A stretch of 64,000 bases of DNA from Arcanobacterium phocisimile (GCF_016904675.1 NZ_CP070228.1:620001-684000); one strand, 5' to 3'. Positions 59,000-64,000 are shown, counted from the first letter of the stretch. Program-made: numbers and translations. The notes: a model not told the origin generated them from the letters alone.

Positions 59000-59386
59000 G
59001 CGTTGTTTGTGCACTGCTGTCAGGCGCGGCAGGGTTGCGGGCTACTGCCGAGGTTGCGGGTTACTGCTAAGTCCCACAGGCTCCGGCCCGTTCTTTCTGA
59101 GCAGTGTGTACTGATTCGGGTTATAGCGCAAACCTCGTCATATATGGACGCAGTTTGCGTTATGACCATATTTACTGCAGTAGTTTGTGGGAGATCAGCT
59201 CCGTGTTGAGCATAATTGAGCGCCACCCAACTTGATGATAGGGAAAATAATATAGGCGGTTGTGTCAACTATCAGGTAGCTTTGATGCATCTTTGAACAC
59301 GCAGGAAAATGCTTTTACAAAGAGCTCTTTTTCGTTAATATGTGGAGATGAAAAGCTCAACGGTGAGAAATTTTCGGGAGGAAAAT
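59000..59386. other. 387-bp noncoding region between truB and the lipoprotein array
   Basis: No credible ORF. It contains two tandem copies of a ~19-bp sequence around GGTTGCGGGYTACTGC (59033-59051 and 59052-59070), the second copy of the palindromic repeat, and an A+T-rich promoter region with GGGAGG just before the lipoprotein ATG. No terminator for truB is obvious. Confidence 0.5.
59123..59163. repeat. palindromic repeat, copy 2
   Basis: Arms ATAGCGCAAAC (59123-59133) and GTTTGCGTTAT (59153-59163) match copy 1 at 2825-2867. The spacer CTCGTCATATATGGACGCA is nearly the same, and TTTACTGC follows in both. One arm base differs from perfect dyad symmetry. Confidence 0.65.
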
Positions 59387-60348
59387 ATGCGACAGTTTTC
59401 GCGAGTTGTAGTTGCCATGATGTTGACCGGCAGTATCCTAAGCGCCTGTAGCGAAGAACCGTCTCCACCGCAAAGTTTAGTGGACGATGTTGATGTTACT
59501 GGTTGAACTTGAAGCCAGATATCGATCGTGACTCATGGATGATTACTTTGCCGGCAGATCGTTTTGGTATTTCTCGAGATGAAGAAGATATAATTTCTTC
59601 GGCGTATATGGGAGCCAGTATGACGTGCTACAAGAAATATGCGCCTGATCAAATTTGGGTAGATTTACCTCCTCTTTCTGGCTTAAATACGATGAATCCT
59701 CCTGTTTTCTCGGAATTTGGCGTGTGGCGAGTAGGTATGGCGCAGCAATTTGGTTTTGATGTTCCTGCGACTGCTCGTATTCCTATTGCAGGGCGTTCTG
59801 ATGTTCGCACACCTATTTCCAGAGAAGTAGTTGCGAAAGTTTACAAAGATCGAGGGGCGATCCCTACGGATGTTTTCGAAAAAGCAGTTGCTTCGTGCGA
59901 GAATGATCCAGATATTCAAAAGTTCAAAAACCCTTACGAGTTAGTTATTGCGCCGTGGTGGGATGAGATTAATCAGGCGCGAGCCAAGCTATTTGACGAC
60001 GATGCGGCTCGCCAAATTTATAACGACGTTGCTAGTTGTTTCGAATCCGAGGGTTTGAAAATGGCAGAGGAAGGGTTTGGGGGAGTTGAGAACTTCGATT
60101 TTCGGCGTAAAAAGAATAATCCTTATCCTGCTAAAGAAGAGATAGATATAGCACTGAAAGTAGCTCAATGCCAGGAGAAATTCGATGCTACACCGAAGCT
60201 TGCTGAGATTTTAGCGGAGAAACAAGCCGACATTATAAAGAAATATCCGAATGAATTTGTTTCGGGCCGCCAAAAGATCGATGCTCTCGTTGCAGATGCG
60301 AAGCAATACATACAAGAACATCCCGATGTTTACGTTAAAACGGACTAG
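59387..60348 (+). pseudogene. lipoprotein A of the array, disrupted by a one-base frameshift
   Basis: ATG 59387 with GGGAGGAAA upstream opens a signal peptide RQFSRVVVAMMLTGSILSAC with lipobox LSAC. The frame stops at TGA 59504-59506 after 39 codons. The mature domain continues from 59503 in the next frame (281 codons, beginning with TTG) and aligns with the paralogues: GLNL...DRDSWMITLP, PVFSEFGVW, MAQQFGF, CQEKFDATPKLAEI, IDALVADAKQYIQEHP. Restoring one T (GGTTTGAAC) joins them exactly. As read, lipidation and domain are uncoupled. A sequencing error or phase variation is possible. Four Cys of the mature family are kept. Confidence 0.75.
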
Positions 60349-60439
60349 TTCTTATGTGCAGTCGGTCTCTTCATCACGGATATAGAGTCGTGAGTTGTCT
60401 GCGTTTCGAACGAAGATGGTGAGGATAGGGGGTTTAAGT

Positions 60440-61387
60440 ATGTTCATTAAGAAATATGGAGTATTCCTTGTTTCTCTCATGATGGTTGTGAGCGCCTGTT
60501 CTTCTGTTGATTCTGGGGTAGACGTAGACTCGTCTGAATCTTCTAGCATGGGTCTGAATCTTAGTGCGGAAGTTGATAAAGAGTCATGGACAGTGACGTT
60601 GCCTTGGAATCGTTACCTTATTTCGGACGAAGAGAAAAATATTTTACTCTCTGCCAGTTCAATGGCACTAGCACAATGCACCCGAGAGAAGAATATGGCA
60701 AAGCAATGGACCGGTACTAATGCGGATTTCATTAGCCAAGTAAATCCACATGTCTATTCAGAATTTGGTCCGTGGCGAAAAGCGATGGCGCAACAATATG
60801 GGTTTTCATCACCTTATCTATCTAATGATCCAATCGTCGGCCGAGATATTAAGCCACCAACAGAAACAGAAATTCTAAAACTTCGCCGTGGGTTTGATGC
60901 GAATAGCTTGTTTTCTGAAGCAGATATGGAATTGATGCGTAAGGAATGTGACGAGTATCCCGCGGTCGAAAAATTCAACCGGGAAAAGATAGCTCCATCA
61001 GCTCCATGGGTTGATGAGCTTGGCGAGACGCGTATGCTGTTGTTTGATGATCCGCGGGCGCAGGAGATTGTGGGTGAGTTGGAGGCGTGTTTTGATAAGC
61101 AGGGGATGAAGATGAGCTCTGAAATTCCTGGATTTGTGGAAGGTGTTAATGGTTTTATTGATCCGACTGAGGAGAGTATTGCTCTTGCGTTGAAGGCGGC
61201 GCAGTGTCAAGAAGAAACTGATGCGACGCCGCGGTTGGCGCAGGTGTGGGCTGATTTGCAGGCTCCGATTGTGAAGAAGTATGCCAAAGAGTTGATAGCG
61301 CAGCGCCAGTTGATCGATGAGCGAGTAGCAGAAGCTAAACAATATATTCAAGAACACCCTGAGCTACTTGAACTACCGGCTCAGTGA
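60440..61387 (+). CDS. lipoprotein B of the array, unknown family
   Basis: 315 residues from the ATG at 60440, behind AGGGGG; upstream in-frame codons are not used. A lipoprotein signal peptide (FIKKYGVFLVSLMMVVSAC, lipobox VSAC) is followed by a Ser/Asp/Val-rich linker and a mostly helical, charged domain. Family marks are VTLPWNRYLISDEE, NPHVYSEFGPW, MAQQYGF, CQEETDATPRLAQVWADLQ and ERVAEAKQYIQEHPE. Four conserved Cys (in QCTRE, ECDEYP, ACFDKQ and QCQEE) suggest two disulfides outside the cell. The last 70 codons are richer in G+C than the first part and nearly identical to lipoprotein C, as if exchanged by recombination. Function unknown. Confidence 0.85.
   Translation: MFIKKYGVFLVSLMMVVSACSSVDSGVDVDSSESSSMGLNLSAEVDKESWTVTLPWNRYLISDEEKNILLSASSMALAQCTREKNMAKQWTGTNADFISQVNPHVYSEFGPWRKAMAQQYGFSSPYLSNDPIVGRDIKPPTETEILKLRRGFDANSLFSEADMELMRKECDEYPAVEKFNREKIAPSAPWVDELGETRMLLFDDPRAQEIVGELEACFDKQGMKMSSEIPGFVEGVNGFIDPTEESIALALKAAQCQEETDATPRLAQVWADLQAPIVKKYAKELIAQRQLIDERVAEAKQYIQEHPELLELPAQ
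61221..61299 (+). repeat. 79-nt perfect repeat in lipoprotein B, shared with lipoprotein C
   Basis: Bases 61221-61299 are identical to 62736-62814. They encode the DATPRLAQVWADLQAPIVKK region and adjoining codons. Flanking sequence on both sides is similar but not identical, and the upstream middle of the genes is much more diverged. Confidence 0.85.
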
Positions 61388-61437
61388 TGTAGCGGGAGTG
61401 GTTGATTTTTTTAGGGGGCGTTTTATCCTTTAAGTGG

Positions 61438-61454
61438 TAAGTGGTACTGCTTAC
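61438..61454 (+). promoter_or_regulatory. 17-bp motif upstream of the first I36-like gene
   Basis: TAAGTGGTACTGCTTAC, an imperfect dyad ending 29 bp before the start codon at 61484. The second I36-like gene has TAAGTGATAATGCTTGC (62941-62957) at almost the same distance. It may be a promoter -10 region or a regulator site. Confidence 0.45.
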
Positions 61455-61483
61455 TATTGAACCATGTTCAAAGGAGAACAATG

Positions 61484-61914
61484 ATGAATATCAAGAAAGT
61501 TTTAAGTTCCATGGTAGCTGTTTTGGCTCTCGGTGCCACCAGTTTTATTACCATAGTTCCGACAGCTAGTGCTGGAAATCCGTTTTGTCCACGCGGAAAA
61601 GCATGTTTATGGAGTCAGACTCGTATGACGGCTGGCGGGCTACTAACGAAGATCCAAGTTCAGCGGTTTATCCTGCAATGAATAATAATTCGGAATCTAT
61701 CGCTGCGAATGGTGGGACATGTGGACTAACTCGATTTTTCGATGAAGATCGAGGGCCGTTTGGTAAGTATATTTATCTTTTTAGTCAAACTCTAGCAGGG
61801 TATAACTATCGCGATCCTAATTTGTATAACGGAGCTGGGTATGGTGCGTATTCTCATGAAAATTGGGCTAATCGGATTGGGTGGGTTGAATTTGGTGGCA
61901 GTGGTTGTGACTAG
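61484..61914 (+). pseudogene. secreted I36/crystallin-like protein 1, frameshifted
   Basis: The frame from ATG 61484 (AAAGGAG upstream; ATG 61481 is adjacent) encodes a signal peptide NIKKVLSSMVAVLALGATSF...ASA and the start of the mature protein, FCPRGKACLWS. After 61615 that frame degenerates and soon stops. The rest of the domain continues in another frame: DSYDGWRATNEDPSSAVYP, SIAANGGTCGLTRFF, YSHENWANRIGWVEF. One base missing near 61616-61618 explains it. The intact paralogue is at 62985-63407. Cys and the CLWx...YxG pattern recall I36 peptidase inhibitors with a crystallin-like fold. Confidence 0.7.
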
Positions 61915-61951
61915 TACCGCAGCGTGAAGGTGGAAATGGAAAGGAAGGAAT

Positions 61952-62902
61952 GTGGTTCGTTCTGTTTTTCGGCAAAGTTGCTGTGTATTGCTTTTGGCGA
62001 CAGTAGGTGCATGTTCTTCTGTTGATCCTGGGGCAGATGTAGACTCATCTGCGTCTTCCAGCATGGGTCTGAATCTGAGCGCGGAAGTTGATAAAGAGTT
62101 ATGGACGGTAACGTTGCCATGGGATCGTTACACGATGACGGATGAACAGCGCATTATCCTTGTTTCTGCAGAATCTTTTGGACTTGCCGAGTGTACACGT
62201 GAGAATATGCAAGACGTTGCATGGACTGCAACATTGCCGGAAGCCCTCAAGGGTGTTAACCCGCATGTTTTTATGGAATTTGGGCCGTGGGTTGAAGAAA
62301 TGGCACAGCAATATGGTTTTTCGTCAGCCGAATTCTCAGATGTACCGATCAATGGTCGCGATCTTGTGGCTAAGAGCAAAGAACAACGTGATCGAGAAAG
62401 AAAAGGGATGCAGAGCAATGCTACGTTTTCAGAGCGAGACATAGAGCTTATGCATGAAACGTGTGATTCGTATCCCCAAGTTAAGAGATTTCAGTTAAAA
62501 GAACTCGATGTGCAGGGTCCATGGACAAAATTACTGGCTGATACTCGCGATCAAATTTTCGAGGATAGTCGCGGTAAAGCAGTTGTGGAAGAATTGGCTC
62601 AATGTTTCATAAGTAAGGGGCTTAAACCAATTGAGGGCGTTCCCGGATATGTAGAAGGAGTTAGCCCACAACGTAACCCGACTTCAGAGAGTATTGCTCT
62701 TGCTTTGAAGGCTGTGGAGTGTCAAGAAGAAACTAATGCGACGCCGCGGTTGGCGCAGGTGTGGGCTGATTTGCAGGCTCCGATTGTGAAGAAGTATGCC
62801 AAAGAGTTGATAGCCCAGCGTGAGTTGATTGACGAGCGGGTAGCAGAAGCAAAACAGTATATGCAAGAACATCCTGAGTTCTTGGAACCTCCGGCTCACT
62901 GA
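61952..62902 (+). CDS. lipoprotein C of the array, unknown family
   Basis: 316 residues from the GTG at 61952, which has AAGGAAGGA upstream. Signal peptide VRSVFRQSCCVLLLATVGAC carries lipobox VGAC. The mature part follows the plan of lipoprotein B: GLNLSAEVDKELWTVTLP, NPHVFMEFGPW, MAQQYGFSS, CDSYPQVKRFQ, CFISKG, CQEETNATPRLAQVWADLQ, EAKQYMQEHPE. The middle third (about residues 115-235) is clearly different from B, while the last 85 residues are nearly the same, with a 79-nt identical run. It sits between the two I36-like genes, 37 bp after the first. Confidence 0.85.
   Translation: MVRSVFRQSCCVLLLATVGACSSVDPGADVDSSASSSMGLNLSAEVDKELWTVTLPWDRYTMTDEQRIILVSAESFGLAECTRENMQDVAWTATLPEALKGVNPHVFMEFGPWVEEMAQQYGFSSAEFSDVPINGRDLVAKSKEQRDRERKGMQSNATFSERDIELMHETCDSYPQVKRFQLKELDVQGPWTKLLADTRDQIFEDSRGKAVVEELAQCFISKGLKPIEGVPGYVEGVSPQRNPTSESIALALKAVECQEETNATPRLAQVWADLQAPIVKKYAKELIAQRELIDERVAEAKQYMQEHPEFLEPPAH
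62736..62814 (+). repeat. 79-nt perfect repeat in lipoprotein C
   Basis: Identical to 61221-61299 in lipoprotein B; see that entry for what it encodes. Confidence 0.85.
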
Positions 62903-62940
62903 TTGGGGACCGATATTGTTTTGGGGTATTCAGCACGTAG

Positions 62941-62957
62941 TAAGTGATAATGCTTGC
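62941..62957 (+). promoter_or_regulatory. 17-bp motif upstream of the second I36-like gene
   Basis: TAAGTGATAATGCTTGC, ending 27 bp before the ATG at 62985. It is the partner of the motif at 61438-61454. Both are followed by GTTCAAAGGAGAA, the ribosome-binding region. Confidence 0.45.
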
Positions 62958-62984
62958 AAATAACAGTGTTCAAAGGAGAATACA

Positions 62985-63407
62985 ATGAAAATCAGGAAAG
63001 TTCTAAGTTCCATGGTAGCTGTTTTAGCTCTCGGTGCAACAGGTTTTGTCGCCACGATTCCTGTTGCTGAGGCTGTGGGAAGTAACTGTCCTCCTAGCGC
63101 GTCTTGTGTGTGGACCGGTAGTTATTATACTCAGATTAGGGGAGAAAATTATGATAATTCATCCCCAGTACATCCAAGTATTAATAATCGAGGAAATTCT
63201 GCTGCCGCAAATGGCGCATCGTGTTGGGCTACGCGATTTTATGATAACACGTGGGCTAGTTCAGGAAGTTATTTCACTTTATATAGTGAAAGAATAGTAG
63301 GAACCAATTACCGGGATTCTTCTTTGGGTGATGGAGCAGGAACGGGTCCATATGCTCATGAGAATTGGGCTAATCGTATAAGCCGGATTACCTATATTTG
63401 TGGCTAA
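62985..63407 (+). CDS. secreted I36/crystallin-like protein 2
   Basis: A 140-residue exported protein, intact. The signal peptide KIRKVLSSMVAVLALGATGF ends near IPVAEA, and its coding sequence is almost the same as in copy 1. The mature protein of about 108 residues has NCPPSASCVWTGSYYTQ, NNRGNSAAANGASCWATRFY, FTLYSERIVGTNYRDSS and YAHENWANRISRITYICG. Four Cys match those of copy 1, suggesting two disulfides. The short C..x..CVW...Y start and NWANRIS end resemble the I36 (Streptomyces metalloproteinase inhibitor) group, but similarity is modest. RBS is AAAGGAG. It lies between lipoproteins C and D. Confidence 0.7.
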   Translation: MKIRKVLSSMVAVLALGATGFVATIPVAEAVGSNCPPSASCVWTGSYYTQIRGENYDNSSPVHPSINNRGNSAAANGASCWATRFYDNTWASSGSYFTLYSERIVGTNYRDSSLGDGAGTGPYAHENWANRISRITYICG

Positions 63408-63439
63408 TTGATCGAGAGTAGTAGCAGGAGAATAGTTCT

Positions 63440-64000
63440 GTGAAAAAACATGTAATTTCGATGATTGCGCTGTCAAGTGTTTTGTTTTTGAGTGGAGCGT
63501 GTTCTCCTGATACTTCAGCTGGCGAGGTGGATGATTCTGCTTCCGCCGTTGCGGCGGATGATTCTGTCTCGCCAGTTGGGGTAGATGTTTCGGCGAAGGT
63601 TGATCGTGATTCATGGATTATCGAACTTCCAGTCCATAGGTATACGCTTTCCAGCGAAGATCAAGCCTATTTGCTGTCTGCGGGCTCGGTGGCAATGGCG
63701 GAGTGCACGCGTACGAAGTTAGATGGGGTGGCGTGGACTGGCTTCCCGCCAGAGATATTTATGCCGGTTAATCCGCCGGTGTTTAGTGAGTTTGGTCCGT
63801 GGAATAAGGATATGGCTGCGCAGTTTGGGTTTACCCGGGTTGAGACTTCGAAAACGCCGATCGCTAATCGTGGATTGAGCGCGCAAAGCGCGGAAATTAA
63901 AGCTGGTTGGACGAGCCGGTCAGATTCGAACGGAAAAATGCTGGAGAAGGCTGAGGCGAAGATGAGTGAAGCATGCGATTCATATCCAATGTTGAAGAAG
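63440..64000 (+). CDS. lipoprotein D of the array, cut by the window edge
   Basis: GTG 63440 with AGGAG nine bases upstream opens a frame still running at base 64000 (187 codons). Signal peptide KKHVISMIALSSVLFLSGAC has lipobox SGAC. A longer Asp/Ser/Ala linker follows, then the family domain: VDRDSWIIELPVHRYTLSSE, ECTRTK, NPPVFSEFGPWNKDMAAQFGF and CDSYPMLKK. It is the most diverged of the four, and its codons are richer in G+C than those of copies A-C. Whether a further I36-like gene follows is not visible. Confidence 0.85.
   Translation, partial: MKKHVISMIALSSVLFLSGACSPDTSAGEVDDSASAVAADDSVSPVGVDVSAKVDRDSWIIELPVHRYTLSSEDQAYLLSAGSVAMAECTRTKLDGVAWTGFPPEIFMPVNPPVFSEFGPWNKDMAAQFGFTRVETSKTPIANRGLSAQSAEIKAGWTSRSDSNGKMLEKAEAKMSEACDSYPMLKK

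Follow-up and report, generated by a model that had tools for sequence, protein, structure and literature searches.

What is the function of the genes for lipoproteins and small secreted proteins that stand in tandem at the right end of the stretch of Arcanobacterium phocisimile DNA analyzed here? This stretch (the window) comprises 64,000 nt, positions 620001-684000 of the complete 1,988,065-base chromosome, and A. phocisimile is a seal-associated Arcanobacterium. A first-pass annotation had described four paralogous lipoproteins (A, B, C and D) and two small secreted proteins resembling peptidase inhibitor family I36 (I36-1 and I36-2), and had suggested that the two products work together. 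Our analysis strongly supports this partnership: the gene content, pairing, order, secretion and lipobox signals, I36 fold and transporter linkage together define a well-supported module. As for its role, we lean toward a secreted, cell-wall-directed antibacterial protein accompanied by a lipoprotein for immunity or reception and by a protective transporter, a function that we infer.

The open reading frames (ORFs) confirmed the gene order A, B, I36-1, C, I36-2, D that had been proposed, all on the plus strand. The features are as follows, with positions counted in the window and L003 denoting the flanking stretch.

59387-59506, plus strand: lipoprotein A, signal peptide and lipobox part; the frame stops at 59506
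59503-60348, plus strand: lipoprotein A, mature domain in the second frame of the frameshifted gene; 97% identity to the A. pinnipediorum orthologue
60440-61387, plus strand: lipoprotein B, intact, with a four-Cys ectodomain and without an I36-like gene directly upstream
61484-61681, plus strand: I36-1, signal peptide and N-terminal part, frame 1 of the frameshifted gene
61585-61914, plus strand: I36-1, remainder of the beta-gamma-crystallin-like domain, frame 2
61952-62902, plus strand: lipoprotein C, intact, directly 3′ of the broken I36-1
62985-63407, plus strand: I36-2, intact small secreted protein with a predicted beta-gamma-crystallin fold
63440-64000 (window edge), plus strand: lipoprotein D, intact, directly 3′ of I36-2; full gene L003:7441-8415

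A and I36-1 are thus each split over two frames, while B, C, D and I36-2 are intact; the first-pass annotation had missed both frameshifts and the transporter, which lies beyond the window. Intact A orthologues exist in two sister species (Arcanobacterium sp. 2701 and A. pinnipediorum). The frameshifts may reflect sequencing error, or they may be genuine, since the published assembly of A. phocisimile DSM 26142 joined short reads and Nanopore reads (PMC8281070). The array had been thought to continue past the window. Lipoprotein D does run on for another 414 bases, with its stop at window-equivalent position 64414, but the array closes with D and is followed by transporter genes and then ribF; the island sits between truB and ribF. 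Its lower G+C content was borne out (43-48%, compared with 52-57% upstream). Direct repeats of 300, 197 and 77 nt, spaced at about 1.5 kb, show duplication of an I36-lipoprotein unit. However, strict alternation is not conserved, as neither A nor B has an I36 gene before it, and the sister species combine six lipoproteins with a single I36 (A. pinnipediorum) or have three and no I36 (sp. 2701).

The distribution of the two gene families provided strong evidence for their partnership. In a survey of 396 genomes of the order, with co-occurrence counts not corrected for shared ancestry, the lipoprotein was found in 41 genomes, the I36-like protein in 39 and both in 20, compared with 4.0 expected if they were independent; in at least 13 of these 20, I36 immediately precedes the lipoprotein gene on one strand. 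The I36 gene lies directly 5′ of the lipoprotein gene on the same strand in G000, G006, G008, G024, G036, G056, G126, G143, G147, G192, G213, G234, G235, G258, G263, G274, G345 and G354, and this order holds in many actinobacterial families; further classes of the phylum have the pair too (G574, G595, G505 and G664). Four I36 loci scored as lipoprotein-negative (G101, G328, G162 and G034) proved on reading to hold a lipoprotein, apparently truncated in G034. Exceptions to the order are rare: it is reversed in G665 (one contig), and G664 holds a third I36 copy that is divergent. Actinotalea sp. C106 encodes an I36 protein without an adjoining lipoprotein, the two genes are 1.1 kb apart in G088, and in four genomes the matches lie on different contigs. 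G352 carries a frameshifted I36 gene beside an intact lipoprotein, as with I36-1 and C in A. phocisimile, and five lipoproteins occur in G119 with no I36 gene detected.

The lipoproteins form a family without annotation, whose predicted fold is not in the PDB. As in the first-pass annotation, no named family was recognized (no Pfam or NCBIfam match above cut-off), and the conserved blocks NPxVxxEFGPW, MAxQxGF, CQExxxATPxLA and AKQYxQEHP, together with four mature-domain Cys, are invariant across A, B, C and D. Identity to B is 58% for C, 58% for D and 39% for A. In all four copies, an SACS/GACS lipobox follows a hydrophobic stretch, which is a bacterial lipoprotein signal. Across 16 diverse homologues, the four mature-domain Cys (C43, C133, C180 and C219 of the modelled C ectodomain) are invariant and the lipobox Cys is nearly so. 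The model of the C ectodomain, built from a 15-sequence alignment, is mainly helical and confident, with a predicted local distance difference test (pLDDT) score of 92 and a predicted template modelling (pTM) score of 0.87; no PDB fold matched it (best E 0.75, template modelling (TM) score 0.14). Sequence searches against solved structures returned chance matches only, a viral fold search with the lipoprotein found nothing, and a plasmid search yielded no lipoprotein homologue. A first contig scan with the four window lipoproteins likewise gave no match, probably because near relatives were excluded there.

As a family, the small proteins can be placed with Pfam I36, and they are predicted to fold as beta-gamma-crystallins. 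With E values up to 1 allowed, PF03995 matched 13 of the 14 members (best E 2.2e-9), and distant members exceed the Pfam cut-off, whereas I36-2 of the window alone scores 14.9 bits, below the cut-off of 21.1. The AlphaFold2 model of I36-2 (pLDDT 82.8) has beta-gamma-crystallins as its top Foldseek matches (probability 1.00, TM about 0.6, best E 3.5e-3). The small proteins bear ordinary Sec signal peptides. In three genomes, the I36 slot is occupied by other cargo: a secreted PG_binding_1 protein in G085 (E 2.5e-11), located after a histidine kinase/response regulator pair; a weakly SH3-like small secreted protein in G111 (E 0.02, below cut-off); and a small secreted protein without an assigned family in G098. 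In Oerskovia merdavium, a second small secreted Cys-containing protein of no Pfam family is encoded upstream of the I36-lipoprotein pair (L085:2498-2830, minus strand).

Beyond D lie three genes that overlap at their ends, with ribF downstream.

L003:8469-9740: adaptor of 423 residues with a PG_binding_1 domain, directly after D and outside the window
L003:9737-10402: ATP-binding cassette (ABC) ATPase (ABC_tran, E 3.6e-33)
L003:10395-11654: FtsX permease (MacB_PCD, E 2.3e-12; FtsX, E 1.1e-11)

Together these genes constitute a MacAB/YknXYZ-type set of adaptor, ATPase and MacB_PCD/FtsX permease. The adaptor was recognized by its PG_binding_1 domain and architecture alone and has no membrane-fusion match in Pfam. 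The ATPase scored 201.7 bits against TIGR03608 (lactococcin-972-type bacteriocin export), below the cut-off of 254.85, and 209.2 bits against the LolD equivalog (LolCDE lipoprotein release), below the cut-off of 307.75. No ORF for a YknW (Yip1-family) partner lies beside the three genes, and PADLOC gave generic ATPase and permease matches only. An adaptor match falls within about 0.7 kb of the lipoprotein match in 29 of the 41 lipoprotein-positive genomes, and five-gene or nearly complete operons occur in Cellulomonas biazotea, Actinotalea subterranea, Luteimicrobium xylanilyticum, Ancrocorticia populi and an Arcanobacterium metagenome-assembled genome.

Within Arcanobacterium, the lipoproteins are found in four of the nine genomes surveyed, the adaptor in exactly those four, and neither in the other five. 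The three positive genomes besides A. phocisimile are those of Arcanobacterium sp. 2701 (PMC7498426), A. pinnipediorum DSM 28752 (PMC9872578) and A. haemolyticum (PMC3035375). A. pinnipediorum encodes six lipoproteins and one I36 protein, sp. 2701 three lipoproteins and no I36, and A. haemolyticum three lipoproteins (one broken) and two I36 proteins; all three arrays end at the adaptor upstream of ribF. A. phocisimile keeps the C-type lipoprotein behind a frameshifted I36 gene, and A. pinnipediorum and sp. 2701 keep it with no I36 gene before it. When A. phocisimile is compared with A. pinnipediorum, identity is lowest for I36-2 (74%) and D (82-86%), followed by C (91%); A, B and TruB reach 95-97%, the adaptor 98% and the permease 99%. 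The intact I36-2/D pair is therefore the fastest-changing part of the operon. Secreted proteins of about 420 residues are encoded near the I36-lipoprotein loci of A. pluranimalium (L119:8529-9797, minus strand) and A. ihumii (L123:8823-10136, minus strand).

Taking these data together, we provide a putative mechanism. The I36-like protein, for which a signal peptide was seen, would be exported by Sec, fold as a beta-gamma-crystallin and act on the cell envelope of related bacteria. The lipoprotein, predicted to be anchored outside the membrane via its lipobox Cys, would capture or sense its cognate I36-like protein, and the lipoprotein, the peptidoglycan-binding adaptor, the ATPase and the FtsX/MacB-type permease would keep that protein off the producer's own envelope, by analogy with YknWXYZ, a Bacillus transporter that protects against the cell's own secreted SDP toxin (PMC4887032). 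Surplus lipoproteins without an I36 partner may be immunity genes retained against neighbors' variants. Among the roles that had been proposed for the pair, effector plus immunity appears to fit best because of the orphan lipoproteins, the broken I36 genes and the swapped secreted cargo. These same features, together with a lipoprotein-type domain linked to an extracytoplasmic function (ECF) sigma factor, suggest that the lipoprotein-type domain binds an extracellular ligand, which is probably a secreted wall-directed protein. The linked domain (G318, L064:1495-2490, minus strand) carries the four Cys on an apparent single-transmembrane protein encoded right after a SigE-family ECF sigma gene, and it is possibly an anti-sigma receptor; in G228, the lipoprotein and adaptor are preceded by genes for an ECF sigma factor and a transmembrane protein. 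In Mobiluncus mulieris, the I36-lipoprotein pair has a second lipoprotein gene next to it on the opposite strand (L128:8389-9432, minus strand), after which come a kinase/response-regulator pair and the adaptor.

Several observations weigh against antagonism and self-protection. Lipoproteins are also broken (A in A. phocisimile, one A. haemolyticum copy and one in A. ihumii), the D-type copies show no clean one-to-one correspondence with I36 types, Pfam names the small family a peptidase inhibitor, and the co-occurrence counts are uncorrected for shared ancestry. Moreover, an I36 gene was detected in only about half of the lipoprotein-positive genomes, and the lipoprotein-transporter link is therefore broader than the I36 link. 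The first-pass annotation had held that lipoproteins regularly found without an I36-like neighbor would speak against the partnership. This was half borne out: many do lack one, yet for the most part their genes share these arrays or adjoin this transporter.

Because the lipoprotein is associated more often with the transporter than with I36, the main rival to the antagonism reading is envelope homeostasis, in which the lipoprotein would serve a MacAB-like transporter as its sensor or as the subunit that receives its substrate, and the small protein would be a wall-binding partner or regulator without antagonistic action. We consider this unlikely, although adjacency of lipoprotein and adaptor is commoner than that of I36 and lipoprotein, ECF sigma or two-component genes lie nearby in some genomes, one lipoprotein-type domain resembles an anti-sigma receptor, and one alternative cargo bears a peptidoglycan-binding domain, as the adaptor does. 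The patchy presence in the genus, the tandem expansion and loss, the frameshifts, and a pair that changes faster than its transporter would all be unusual for a housekeeping machine.

Protease defense, in which the I36-like proteins would inhibit metalloproteases and the lipoprotein would tether or receive them at the cell surface, is an idea that comes mainly from the Pfam name and appears distinctly improbable to us. The PF03995 matches and the beta-gamma-crystallin fold speak for it. However, I36-2 itself falls below the Pfam threshold, and the idea leaves the MacAB-type transporter, the orphan lipoprotein arrays and the exchange of I36 for a peptidoglycan-binding protein unexplained. The narrower suggestion of defense against host proteases found no specific support, because free-living Cellulomonas, Actinotalea and Luteimicrobium commonly carry the pair. 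The transporter and lipoprotein might instead export or release a small protein with some other role, as the subthreshold score of the ATPase with TIGR03608 could indicate. We regard this as very improbable, given that the small proteins have ordinary Sec signal peptides and that some pairs lie away from the transporter (the third Ancrocorticia pair, and an A. pluranimalium pair at 275 kb). Finally, chance neighborhood of two unrelated duplicated families, for which nothing but the incomplete overlap of their distributions speaks, is refuted by the co-occurrence and by a gene order and orientation that stay fixed across many families of the phylum.

The proposed antagonism module resembles several known systems in part. 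In lantibiotic immunity, the LanI lipoprotein acts alongside the LanFEG ABC transporter, a pairing of immunity lipoprotein and ABC transporter like the one proposed here; in contrast, the cargo here is a folded protein and not a lanthipeptide. The I36 inhibitor SMPI from Streptomyces has in common with the small proteins a profile match, at the level of the family, and the beta-gamma-crystallin fold predicted for I36-2, whereas the small proteins are in fixed genetic partnership with a lipoprotein and a MacAB-type transporter. YknWXYZ and MacAB share a membrane-fusion adaptor, a separate ATPase and an FtsX/MacB_PCD permease. In contrast to them, the Arcanobacterium adaptor carries PG_binding_1 and is linked to a four-Cys lipoprotein and a secreted I36-like protein, YknW is missing, and the transport role would hold by analogy. 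At lactococcin 972 loci, the gene for a beta-rich bacteriocin exported by Sec is accompanied by ABC-type immunity genes, the function of which is not fully verified (PMC4055356, PMC11796350). A small Sec-secreted beta-rich protein with linked ABC-type immunity or transport genes is common to both. However, neither I36-2 nor the 14-member family matched the lactococcin 972 family in Pfam or NCBIfam, the ATPase is below the TIGR03608 cut-off, and a lipoprotein and a peptidoglycan-binding adaptor are present here.

No account of an I36-lipoprotein-transporter module was found in the open-access literature. We speculate, with somewhat less than even confidence, that these loci represent an unrecognized antagonism system that extends across the actinobacterial phylum, with interchangeable wall-directed cargo, a four-Cys lipoprotein receptor or immunity protein of a fold not in the PDB, and a peptidoglycan-binding MacAB-type transporter; lipoprotein arrays would be immunity stockpiles, and in some lineages the domain would have become a receptor for ECF sigma control. 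If so, many actinobacterial "peptidase inhibitor I36" proteins would be antibacterial effectors, with an unannotated lipoprotein family as their immunity or receptor proteins. This would provide a list of new antibacterial proteins and matching resistance genes from commensals and opportunists (Arcanobacterium and Mobiluncus) and soil actinobacteria. It would also give a common transporter type, MacAB-like and peptidoglycan-binding, a defined role. If this is wrong, the conserved operon is still an uncharacterized envelope module missed by current annotation.

Some minor features of the island were also observed. A palindromic repeat of about 69 nt lies on both of its sides (window 59105-59173 and L003:11690-11758). 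We rejected this repeat as an island boundary; its core has at least nine copies dispersed in the genome, in the manner of a repetitive extragenic palindromic (REP)-like element, and it is therefore no evidence of integration. In a scan for promoters and terminators, promoters were no more frequent than in shuffled sequence. Between the permease gene and ribF, L003:11757-12116 encodes a small Cys/Gly/His-rich protein for which no family was found; it has repeated KGCGCGG motifs and is kept in sister species.

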